Origin: Astrocystis sublimbata
Lineage: Eukaryota; Ascomycota; Sordariomycetes; Xylariales; Xylariaceae
DNA length: 64,000 bases
NCBI GenBank assembly: GCA_022453515.1
Contig: JAJNNY010000016.1
Coordinates: forward strand, 372,001 to 436,000
Direction of reading: 5' to 3'
Both the position numbers and the translations under genes were made by a program. Every line of letters begins with the position of its first letter. The stretch's first letter is position 1. Under the pieces are notes generated by a model that worked only from the letters and a program-made list of their open reading frames with translations, made no database searches and was not told the origin of the DNA. Shown here piece by piece: positions 27,975-60,766 of this stretch.

Positions 27975-28072
27975 GCTCGGTTAGCTCAGTTGGTTAGAGC
28001 GTCGTACTAATATTATAAGAAATTATAACATTGGTGATGCGAAGGTCATGAGTTCGACCCTCATACTGAGCA
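27975..28072 (+). tRNA. tRNA-Ile (anticodon AAU) with a 24-nt intron
   Basis: The cloverleaf is visible directly. The acceptor stem GCTCGGT pairs with ACTGAGC (one G-U). The D arm is GCTC..GAGC. The anticodon stem TCGTA pairs with TGCGA around loop CTAATA+A, with anticodon AAT at 28009-28011. The T arm is ATGAG TTCGACC CTCAT, and the discriminator is A. The 24-nt intron (28013-28036) sits between positions 37 and 38, the canonical site cut by tRNA splicing endonuclease. The mature length is 74 nt before CCA. A TTTT run follows at 28081. Confidence 0.95.
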
Positions 28073-33101: not shown

Positions 33102-34342
33102 ATGATGACATGGCACGAGACCGATCAGAAAGGCGTCTTTTCGCGACCGATAGGCGAGAACGAGGCGTTCATTAAGCTTTTGGGAGATGTAGGACTACCT
33201 CTCAACCGTGAGCACTGGGCCATCAATTCCACCGCGACCATAATACCTACTGGTTCCATGGCGGCGTCTGTGGACCTGGCATCCCATTTCCGCCGGGCCT
33301 GGGCACATCTGCGTTTCCAGCATCCAAGTCTAGCAGCGGAGAGTGCACCCGACAACAAGAACCTCATCTACACTGTTCCGTCTGAAAATGAAAATCCGCT
33401 CGATGTCTGGGTCGCCCGCACCTTCAGCGTCGCTACTGGTTCCTCTGCTGATGTGATCGCAACATTGCAACCAACACCTTACGCCCAGCTCGTATACATC
33501 CCGCGATCTAGCGAGCTGCTGTTTCATACTTCACATTGGCGCTCGGATGGGATTGGTGTTATTCTTCTGTTAGACGCTTTGCTGTCTATTGCCTCTACGT
33601 TACCGCTTGCTGATCCTGCCTCTCTGCCGTGGAGCTCCGAGATCGAGCGCCTTGCGCCTTCAATCGAAGATGCTGCGGCCGTGCCAAAAGACTCGACCCC
33701 GGCATCGAAGGAGCGCAGCGCCGTCGCCGTACGCACTTTTGCTCATGCTGCGAGCCTGTATACGACAGGCTGGATGAAACGGGTCGACTCTAGCTCGTCT
33801 TGGTCGGAGCGCCTCGGCCAATACCAGAATGAGTACCGGAAAGGAATCACGCGCGATTTCCTGGACTCGCACCGCGAGTATGCAGTGCAGCTTGGCGAGA
33901 TGGTACGGAACGCGTTGTCGCAGAGCGTAGGAGGTGTGCCCCCTAGTGATGTTGACATCAGCAGCATCGGTGTATGTATCTCGCGAAAGTCATTCATTCC
34001 CGTTCCTGGCAAGTCCTGCAGGCAGAAGTTACCCTAACTCCCGTTTCACGAGCAAAGGCACTTACTGACTCCAGCGGTTTATAGGTGGCCGAAAGTTTGG
34101 TCAGGCAATCATATGGGACGCCCAAGGCAGGTTTCGATGTCGAGGCTATAAGCGTAGGAGTTGAGATTCTATCTCGACAGGCGGTGACTTTCGTGTGGAC
34201 CTTTCGCGGCCGCCTGAACATCAGTGTCGTGTATAATGAGTCGTTCCATTCCGCTGGCCAGATGGAGCGTTTTGCTACAGAGGTTCGGAAACAGTTGCTA
34301 AACGGGCTAGACATCCACTTTCATCAAACAAGCTCGTCCTAA
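33102..34342 (+). CDS. Condensation-type acyltransferase (HxxxDG), trichothecene 15-O-acetyltransferase (Tri3)-like
   Basis: Exons 33102-33971 and 34085-34342 are joined in phase 0 and give 375 aa. The N-terminus shows the family start RPIGENEAFIK..GLPLNREHWAIN. The catalytic HxxxDG motif is H145-W-R-S-D149-G150 within LLFHTSHWRSDGIG. The second exon supplies the closing block VGVEILSRQAVTFVWTFRGR LNISVVYNE and a terminal helix. Members of this fungal family transfer acyl groups from CoA to alcohols or amines in secondary metabolism. No polyketide, terpene or NRPS backbone gene lies nearby, so the substrate is unknown and cluster membership is unsupported. The protein is shorter than Tri3 itself (about 500 aa), so it is only a distant relative. 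Its single 113-nt intron belongs to the repeated intron family described separately. Either ATG at 33102 or 33105 could initiate. Confidence 0.82.
33972..34084 (+). mobile_element. Introner-like element, shortened copy (intron of acyltransferase)
   Basis: This 113-nt intron is recognisably related to the two 155-nt agmatinase introns in sense orientation. All share a GTATG start, AGTCATTC-TCCC--TTC-TG-CAAGTC in the 5' third, AAGTTACCCTAAC in the middle, and AAAGGCA-TTACTGACTCCAGC GGTT before the acceptor. About 40 nt, including the right arm of the internal hairpin, is missing, and the last bases are TATAG rather than GCAG. It therefore looks like an older, deleted copy. Confidence 0.75.
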
Positions 34343-58879: not shown

Positions 58880-60766
58880 CTACAACTCATCCTTCCCAAT
58901 TCTCCTCTCGGCCCCAGCAGCCTCGGTCCCTGTTTTCCCCATCTCCTGCATCCCCCTCTTGACCATCGAGCTTAGGATCTCGTAGACGACCTGTGCAGCC
59001 GCAAGCGCCGTCTCCTCTCCATTCCCCTGGTAGGCCGGGGCCACCTCGACGACGTCCGCGCCGACCACATTCAGCCCTTCCACGCCCCTCAGGATCCTAA
59101 TCAACTCCCTCGTTGTCCAGCCTCCGGGCTCCGGCGTTCCGGTGCCCGGCGCGAAAGCCGGGTCGAGCACGTCGATGTCGACGCTCAAATAAACGGGATC
59201 CTCTGTTCCCAGAATGTTCATGATATTCTTCACAATGCCAGCCGTGCCCAGCTCATCGATATCGTCCGCGGAAAAGCGCACCCAGCCTTGCTGGTCGTCG
59301 TCGTCGAGGTCTTCGAAGCCGTCACCCGAAAGCCGGGTTCGTAGTCCCGCGTGGACGGAGGCTGCTCCCCCTGCACCACCAGATCCTCCGCCGGAGGAGG
59401 AGGAGGAGGAGGAGGAGGAGGAGGATGAATTAGCTAAAAGACCCTCCTGCCCCGCCAACCAGAACATCGACCCGTGGTTGAACCTCGACTGCTCACTGGT
59501 CCAGTAGCTTGGGTACTCTGCAACCGCTGGAGTCAGTAATTGCCTTTACAGTACAATAACTGCTCATGAAACAGAGGTTTGTAGGTGTCTCTGGAGTATA
59601 GATACCTGTTAGGGCATTTTATGCTTCCGAGACTTGTCAGAAGGGGGAATCAAAACTCCAGCGGTTGCATACTTTCCGGGTGCCAGGTATCCAGATGCGC
59701 GTCAAAATGCAGCACCCGCAGTCCCTTGCCGTAGGCTTTCTTCAGAGCCCGCAGGGCTGGCAATGCGATGCTGTGGTCCCCCCCGAGAGTGATTAGCTTC
59801 GGGAAAGTGAGGAGCGGCGAGAGCGGGCTGCGCACTGCGAGCTCGGAGAATGCTGTCGACATCTGCAGCAGCGCCTGCGCGTTGTCCACTGCAACCTCTG
59901 GAGTCAGTAAATGCCTTTTACAGTAAAATATTGCCCATAAAGAAGTGGTTTGCAGGTGTCTCGGGAGTATAGATACCCGTTAGGGTAAGTTTTGCTCCCG
60001 AGACTTGCAAGAAGGGGGAGGAATGACTCCAGGAGTTGCATACTCGGCGTCACGGGGATGTCGCCACAGTCGAGGATCTTCGCCCAGCCCATGTACGGGT
60101 TTATGCTGGCCCGCGGGTTGAAGCCACGGTACGAGGTCTGGCGCGCCGAGGCGGCGCGGATTGCACGCGGGCCGAAACGGGCTCCTATACGGATGGTTAC
60201 ATGAGATTAGTAGGAAAATCCAATGCCGGGCTATGTATTCCGGCAGTCGAGCCATGTGATGGAGAAACATAGGAAAGTTGCGAGACAGCCATGAACCGAA
60301 AAGCTTGCTGGCGATTAATGCCATACCTGGGCGATAAGTGACGGCTGTATCGAAAGGGGCGCCGATAATAGCAATATCAAAGAGTTCATTCGGTCTCGTC
60401 AGGCATTTGACATGTTTGAGATGGGCGAAGGTAGATATGCCGCTGAATGCCCACTATGTTGAAAGGCGAGTCTTACGCATTAGCTTTGGGAGCTATCATT
60501 CGAACAATCGCAATGGACATCCATTTTCCGTTGCACTTCCACAGTTACAGATCCAACAATAGCCAGTTTTTCCCCACCTCTCTCCTCATCCGCGTAAATA
60601 CAGTCTAGGGAGAACGAAAACTTACGTCCGTATCCCATCTCGCCTCAAGCTCATCGATCTCCGCTTGACTCCATTCCCGGACCTGCTCACCATAGCCACC
60701 ACCACAAGCTGCAATAAGAGCGGAGCCAAAGCTCAGTATCAGCAGAGAAATCCCTCGGCACCTCAT
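58880..60766 (-). CDS. Agmatinase-family ureohydrolase with signal peptide
   Basis: Manganese hydrolase converting agmatine to putrescine and urea (or a related guanidino substrate). Five exons: 60626-60766, 60327-60453, 60044-60184, 59673-59888 and 58880-59517. Introns are 172, 142, 155 and 155 nt; all joins keep frame and give 420 aa. The N-terminus [20 protein letters not shown] is a clear signal peptide, as in many fungal agmatinases. Metal-site motifs are [35 protein letters not shown] and [48 protein letters not shown] is the conserved N-half. In a surface loop after [12 protein letters not shown] there is a run of 12 Ser then Gly-rich sequence (GAG/GGA repeats on the plus strand). Introns 3 and 4 are near-duplicates of each other (listed separately). 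Substrate specificity is not provable from sequence. Confidence 0.93.
59518..59672 (-). mobile_element. Introner-like element copy 1 (agmatinase intron 4)
   Basis: 155-nt intron beginning GTATGCAACCGCTGGAGT and ending GACTCCAGCGGTTGCAG in sense orientation. The ends form a perfect 14-bp inverted repeat (59520-59533 against 59655-59668). About 80% identical by eye to intron 3 of the same gene over its full length, and the same size. It splits Glu|Lys of HPEK in phase 1, so both ends are bona fide splice sites, confirmed by the conserved protein around them. Confidence 0.85.
59889..60043 (-). mobile_element. Introner-like element copy 2 (agmatinase intron 3)
   Basis: 155-nt intron with the same ends as copy 1 (GTATGCAACTCCTGGAGT to GACTCCAGAGGTTGCAG). 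The terminal inverted repeat matches 14 of 16 positions (59891-59906 against 60024-60039). Inside, a perfect 10-bp inverted repeat GTCTCGGGAG/CTCCCGAGAC (59958-59967, 59995-60004) would form a second hairpin. It is inserted in phase 1 in the codon for Met of TPMDNAQ. Confidence 0.85.

Follow-up and report, generated by a model that had tools for sequence, protein, structure and literature searches.

Two look-alike introns of an agmatinase gene are very probably independent insertions of a multicopy introner-like family in a Xylaria-like fungus

Introner-like elements (ILEs) have been described in the Dothideomycetes Fulvia fulva, Dothistroma septosporum and Zymoseptoria tritici (PMC4457414). 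Some site bias is already known for such elements, since earlier work is cited in PMC8469720 for a preference for AG/GY sites and for codon phase, and inverted repeats as such are not new, because the same source refers to earlier ILE papers in which these or stable structures were seen. According to the passages devoted to them in PMC8469720 and PMC12403724, stwintron families of Hypoxylaceae and Xylariaceae carry inverted repeats and occupy apparently random sites with no bordering exon pattern. In the relevant part of PMC9860276, an Acanthoeca introner family is credited with terminal inverted repeats (TIRs) and no target-site duplications (TSDs), and ascomycete introner families are stated to lack both. 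In these portions of the literature the papers disagree on inverted repeats in fungal introners, some reporting them and one survey (PMC9860276) denying them. How new spliceosomal introns originate is unsettled, as is the form, RNA or DNA, in which ascomycete introners are mobile, and the family described here offers a concrete test. Among the papers listed on introners, Xylaria and Sordariomycetes, titles and abstract openings contained no prior description of it.

A pair of look-alike introns in an agmatinase gene

The window, by which we mean the whole stretch of 64,000 nucleotides analysed, carries an agmatinase gene with two introns of the same size, introns 3 and 4 (Table 1). The 420-residue product aligned along its entire length with proteins of Xylaria flabelliformis, X. 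cubensis and X. scruposa at 82-84% identity, and an alignment inspected by eye showed that both intron junctions are gap-free in 8 orthologous proteins (for example DIPVTPMDN versus DIPVVPIDN and WHPEKYPSYW versus WHPAKYPSYW). Both introns interrupt codons after the first base, a Met codon for intron 3 and a Lys codon for intron 4. Of the 8 relatives, 7 have Ile, Met or Val at the intron-3 junction and one has Thr, so the T that follows intron 3 is probably old; at the intron-4 junction, Lys was present in 8 of 8. A poly-serine run encoded by TCC repeats (59392-59428, minus strand) was longer in this agmatinase than in the 8 inspected orthologues. In the window as a whole, a single Rfam match exceeded the gathering score, a tRNA gene (27975-28072, plus strand).

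Table 1. Positions of the features in the window, and tips of the intron types
Feature	Position	Strand	Basis or remark
Agmatinase (arginase-family) gene	58880-60766	-	five exons, four introns, 420 aa; spliced translation
Agmatinase exons	60626-60766, 60327-60453, 60044-60184, 59673-59888, 58880-59517	-	
Intron 3, alpha-type introner-like element, 155 nt	59889-60043	-	splits codon A/TG
Intron 3, left inverted-repeat arm	60024-60040	-	intron nt 4-20, right after donor GTA; 15/17 opposite-strand match; stem in fold
Intron 3, right inverted-repeat arm	59890-59906	-	intron nt 138-154; opposite-strand match; fold
Intron 3, putative branch site ACTGAC	59903-59908	-	sequence; conserved in family alignment
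Intron 4, alpha-type introner-like element, 155 nt	59518-59672	-	splits codon A/AG
Intron 4, left inverted-repeat arm	59655-59669	-	intron nt 4-18; 15/15 complementary; fold
Intron 4, right inverted-repeat arm	59519-59533	-	intron nt 140-154; opposite-strand match; fold
Intron 4, equivalent putative branch site	59532-59537	-	
Third, decayed family member, 113 nt	33972-34084	+	beta-like ends GTATGTAT...TATAG/GTG, in another gene
Alpha tips			GTATGCAAC...GTTGCAG
Beta tips			GTATGTAG...GTATAG
Gamma tips			GTCAGT...AAATAG
Delta tips			looser type, GTATGTG...CTGAAG

A preliminary description of this DNA had reported that the two introns share their length and termini and match at about 80% of their bases from end to end, that the exon between them resembles neither neighbour, and that the likeness is bounded by GT and AG. 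Our comparison bore this out. Both introns run from GTATGCAAC to GGTTGCAG, starting with GTATGC and finishing with GCAG, and they were identical at 121 of 155 positions without gaps (78%) and at 82% over 156 columns with gaps (blastn, E 1.1e-38). When the window was compared with itself, this pair was the sole match at E <= 1e-4; it comprised 157 columns and ended at the intron borders except for one base past the 5' border, and the intervening exon had no match within the window at that threshold.

A dispersed family of intron copies

The same description had read the pair as introner-like elements and had proposed a search of the source genome with each intron. In the genome from which the window comes (42.6 Mb in 189 contigs), scored matches, selves included, numbered at least 41 for intron 3 and at least 40 for intron 4. 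Three family patterns of 25-26 nt gave 56, 101 and 72 matches with up to three mismatches (100 of the 101 being listed), and none of the reversed patterns gave any (0, 0, 0). A shorter 18-nt pattern from the 3' arm gave 258 matches versus 119 in the control; from it we took the 25 listed places with 0-1 mismatch and none with two or more, the remaining rows with 0-1 mismatch being places already counted or left-arm matches. Merging yielded at least 146 family places (positions are given below as contig:position), 10 of which rest on the 18-nt pattern alone, and decayed copies were surely missed. Members are dispersed, about 157 nt long and bounded by GT and AG, where the similarity among copies ends, conservation fading within one or two exon bases. 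A 21-nt family pattern found 0 matches in viral_contigs and 0 in genome_contigs, collections that are uninformative on fungi.

The spread looks recent, because the introns at C102:606872 and C104:437350, one of them in a 6-phosphogluconate dehydrogenase gene, are 100% identical in differing exon contexts; other copies reached 96-97.5%. Such identical copies suggest that polymorphic insertions may occur between strains. The opposite stage is illustrated by the 113-nt relic in the window (Table 1), which the pattern search recovered again as C67:406053-406077 and which has decayed towards an ordinary intron; its joined frame is open for 300 codons on the left and 85 on the right, and had no Pfam match. 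Places are unevenly spread, the 538-kb contig C107 holding 14 of the 146 on 1.3% of the genome (26 per Mb versus about 3.4 overall), and this region may have an unusual tolerance of, or exposure to, insertions. Identical introns with identical flanks occur at C11:53720 (plus) and C11:39255 (minus), an inverted duplication within that contig, and at C107:516618 and C95:5870, the small contig C95 repeating part of C107.

The reading frames around the copies behave as expected of introns. Usable sequence was available for 84 of the 146 places; the 62 left out, C106:484026 among them, may hold intergenic or antisense copies. Splice sites could be defined in 79 of the 84 (the exceptions being C2:650966, C88:350374, C88:377081, C110:391774 and C179:660031), the donor being chosen automatically and remaining doubtful for C146:644758, C67:654178 and C179:226472. 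After joining, 62 of these 79 copies had a frame open for 99 nt to the left and to the right of the junction in the sense orientation and 17 did not, versus 28 of 79 open in antisense, and the shorter open arm had a median of 49 codons in sense versus 25 in antisense (Wilcoxon p 1.7e-11, n=79). Where a single phase was open on each side, the two phases agreed in 17 of 20 cases, as compared with a mean of 0.38 and a highest value of 0.67 for shuffled partners, and moving the acceptor by 1-2 nt lowered the agreement to 1-2 of 20-21. Phases picked by the longest open frame can be wrong, as with intron 3, called phase 2 against phase 1 in the gene model, and we therefore claim no phase bias.

Protein domains pointed in the same direction. 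A Pfam scan of 30 of the 79 spliced peptides, mostly the longer ones, found in 16 a domain that extends 8 residues or more beyond the junction in both directions: GH43, 6PGD, RecQ zinc-binding, Na/H exchanger, alpha/beta hydrolase, two AA9, two MFS, amino-acid permease, FAD-binding, methyltransferase, S1, P450, DUF3425 and PTR2. The rest comprised 3 marginal cases, 1 junction between two domains of one enzyme, 2 peptides with a domain elsewhere and 8 with none. At the same ten loci, a Pfam match was obtained for 8 of 10 sense peptides and 0 of 10 antisense peptides, the latter being shorter. From these reading frames and the orthologous proteins we infer that the copies are removed by the spliceosome. 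The 79 readable copies are strongly biased towards the coding strand and towards frame-preserving positions, and the 146 places amount to many similar copies which, where readable, are mostly introns in unrelated protein-coding genes; the outcome of the proposed genome search thus supports the introner-like reading.

The proposal that the pair records intron gain by copying stood in part: a family of copied introns exists, and these two were not copied from one another. Among 78 neighbours, intron 4 ranked 20th closest to intron 3, and intron 3 ranked 26th closest to intron 4; relatives in other genes come closer, at 85-88% identity, and they are 81% identical to each other in the same comparison. 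A tree built from the core alone, with few resolved forks, placed them in different parts of one alpha clade. Since neither is the other's closest copy, introns 3 and 4 appear to be separate insertions. Tandem duplication or gene conversion within the gene, by which one intron would derive from the other, would account for their shared gene, equal length and 82% identity; given the closer relatives in other genes, the genome-wide extent of the family and an intervening exon that matches nothing else in the window at E <= 1e-4, such a local event is hardly credible, and we rejected it on the neighbour ranks, the tree and the genome-wide copies.

Close spacing of copies recurs in the genome, with 8 same-strand pairs of places within 2.5 kb versus 0.62 expected, and 0 opposite-strand pairs. 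Some genes seem to receive separate copies, because the members of the four readable close pairs are only 66-82% identical. Paralogues that are uninterrupted at the corresponding positions give no more than supporting evidence for intron gain. In an agmatinase-like paralogue of 45% identity on contig C113, residues 156-374 are matched within 639 nt, too short a stretch for an intron to fit where intron 4 would lie. An AA9 gene containing a family copy, with its junction at query residue 40, gave 16 other matches, 11 of which cross that residue in one stretch (starting at residue 35 or before and continuing past residue 60), one of the 11 having two stops. The C113 paralogue (C113:453162-453800, minus strand) contains one in-frame TGA and is possibly a decaying copy.

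Tips, exon neighbours and inverted repeats

All copies share a core like CTGGAGTCATTTATTCCC...TTACTGACTCCAG, and their tips define four types, alpha, beta, gamma and the looser delta (Table 1). We compared exon flanks in 77 copies, two gene duplicates having been removed, and found, as the new observation here, that the neighbouring exon bases differ among sub-families according to their tips. The first exon base after the intron was T in 51 of 53 alpha copies (p 4e-31), intron 4 of the agmatinase gene being one of the only two exceptions; the two following bases were GT in 8 of 8 beta copies, the two preceding bases were AG in 7 of 8 gamma copies, and the following base was A in 7 of 8 delta copies of this set. 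Genome-wide pattern rows gave T in 66 of 70 for alpha (first 20 bases with up to 2 mismatches, ending in AG) and, by manual count, GT in 13 of 14 comparable rows for beta and AG in 12 of 15 for gamma, two of these 12 belonging to one duplicated gene; delta was mixed, with 8 A, 7 T and 1 G in 16 manually counted rows (up to 2 mismatches). Reversed-pattern controls for alpha, beta, gamma and delta gave 3, 2, 0 and 0 matches. A general preference of 3' splice sites is not the explanation, because the sub-families differ within a single genome.

Tip labels are not all clean clades. In the core-only tree, for which 69 copies were long enough, the alpha label required 5 changes, with 37 of 47 rows in one clade (support 96/96), and beta, gamma and delta required 2, 1 and 6, the clustering of delta being no better than chance; two copies labelled alpha by the script (C67:405926 and C102:498453) are by eye beta and delta. 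Inheritance of flanks from the donor copy beyond the first base was unsupported, since the flanks of nearest-neighbour alpha copies (1.08 and 1.13 matches of 4) were no more alike than those of random pairs (1.19 and 1.25).

No target-site duplication was detected in alpha (53 copies, k = 2-5) or delta (8 copies), and direct repeats between the two exons showed no clear excess in alpha at k = 3-8. In beta and gamma, the flank (GT and AG) repeats the two bases with which the intron itself begins or ends, so that a 2-bp target duplication could be present there and would be indistinguishable from a site preference.

The ends of the alpha copies are complementary to each other. Arms TGCAACTCCTGGAGTCA (left) and TGACTCCAGAGGTTGCA (right) of intron 3 pair in the predicted fold, the right one starting inside ACTGAC and stopping one base before the final intron G. 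We take ACTGAC to be a good match to the fungal branch-site consensus; the putative branch A of intron 3 lies at 59904, 15 nt before the last intron base. Folds predicted for these two copies were far more stable than those of shuffled sequences (intron 3, -59.5 kcal/mol, z -6.8; intron 4, -55.5 kcal/mol, z -6.2). The arms paired in 94.3% of cells across 28 distinct aligned copies and in 16-47% when slid by 1-3 columns. Covariation lends no support to the stem: 0 of 15 pairs showed compensatory changes in these 28 copies, and paired cells reached 94.1% in among-sequence shuffles. We therefore see no sign of selection keeping the stem after insertion, and the symmetry of the arms can be explained by descent. 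End complementarity had a median of 15 of 24 bases in alpha (shuffled mean 8.6, 99th percentile 13) and was less marked in the other types (medians for beta, gamma and delta 12, 12 and 10; 99th percentiles 12, 13 and 13; shuffled means 8.7-8.9). The stable fold and inverted repeats of introner-like elements are thus present, and the terminal inverted repeats of a MITE-like introner are found in alpha and, more weakly, in the other types. Alpha copies also contain a second CAG (in CTCCAG) in frame, 9 nt upstream of the 3' splice site (59898-59900 in intron 3), whose use would add three codons.

These ends bear on a different kind of element, a non-autonomous, MITE-like DNA transposon with inverted-repeat ends in which splice sites happen to lie; it would be moved by a transposase acting in trans, and its exonic copies would survive in the sense orientation only, since only these are spliced out. 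The alpha complementarity and the hairpins speak for it, as do flanking bases that resemble a target preference, the beta GT and gamma AG that a 2-bp target duplication would give, and the assignment of most introners to DNA transposition in the part of PMC9860276 concerned. Against it stand the absence of target duplication in alpha and delta, the weaker complementarity of the other types and the tips themselves, which should be the binding place of the transposase and yet differ among sub-families while the ends stay GT and AG. The close pairs, all on the same strand, also count against it, as does the lean of readable copies to the coding strand, although exonic survival alone could cause the latter. 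On balance we regard a MITE-like origin as rather unlikely, while granting it an appreciable share of the probability.

A source in the same order of fungi is the [D1,2] stwintron family of Hypoxylaceae and Xylariaceae, from which the copies could be canonical introns that were cropped. Inverted-repeat ends, seamless insertion and a branch site near the 3' end are common to both, as far as the stwintrons are described in the portions of PMC8469720 and PMC12403724 used here. By eye, the published near-terminal repeats GUAUAAAAAC / GUUUUUAUGU are absent from our consensus, and the exon base before the intron, which must be G in a [D1,2] stwintron, was G in just 12 of 56 alpha-labelled copies. 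Descent from stwintrons is accordingly improbable. The [D1,2] structure itself was rejected, stwintrons being compared by description, on this base and on the agmatinase frame, which needs a direct A/T join.

The explanation that we consider very probable is that a single multicopy introner-like family of a Xylaria-like fungus inserted twice, independently, to give introns 3 and 4. As to what moves, we lean slightly towards the spliced intron, because unrelated tips all end in GT and AG, the copies that could be read favour the coding strand, and alpha and delta lack a target duplication. An excised, hairpin-forming intron RNA would be reverse-spliced into transcribed sense-strand DNA or RNA, at sites where one or two adjoining exon bases fit the ends of the sub-family, and would be fixed as DNA through reverse transcription or repair. 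Insertion into an exon would make a new intron at little cost, since each copy is presumably spliced out, and copies would then degenerate into ordinary introns as point changes and deletions accumulate.

Flanks that are specific to a sub-family are not predicted by reverse splicing in its plain form, and these flanks, together with the inverted repeats, look partly transposon-like. Neither the simple RNA version nor the simple transposase version explains a specificity that shifts with the tip; any mechanism must account for the association of GTTGCAG with a following T, of GTATAG with a following GT and of GTCAGT with a preceding AG. One speculative reading, which we hold to be doubtful, is that introners carry their own target specificity, the tip dictating the adjoining exon bases (T, GT or AG), which change as the tips change. 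Group II introns choose their targets through intron-exon pairing. If the reading is true, tip-set specificity would resemble theirs, and a family of spliceosomal introns would be a directed mobile element and not a random entrant.

Comparison with described introners

The family belongs to the introner-like elements, a known kind, and its variant features are new. As in the ILEs of Dothideomycetes, in the account considered here (PMC4457414), similar spliceosomal introns occur in unrelated genes, form several sub-families, can be present twice in a gene and decay into ordinary-looking introns; inverted repeats or stable folds are likewise shared, as cited in PMC8469720. Unlike those elements, ours reside in a xylariaceous, Xylaria-like sordariomycete; compared with what these sources describe, the inverted repeat of the main type takes in part of the putative branch site and stops a single base short of the 3' end, and exon neighbours vary by sub-family.

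With the sister stwintrons and cropped sister introns of the Xylariales, as presented in parts of PMC8469720 and PMC12403724, the family shares its order, terminal inverted repeats, seamless coding-strand insertion and the double occupation of some genes. It differs from the stwintrons of these accounts in consisting of canonical single introns, which are about 157 nt long and lack the published NTIRE-10 sequences, and in the strong bias of the adjoining exon base. Like the DNA-transposon introners in the corresponding section of PMC9860276, the family has inverted repeats at its ends and splice sites at its boundaries; unlike the ascomycete introners of that survey, as characterized there, the main sub-family here combines TIRs with no TSD.
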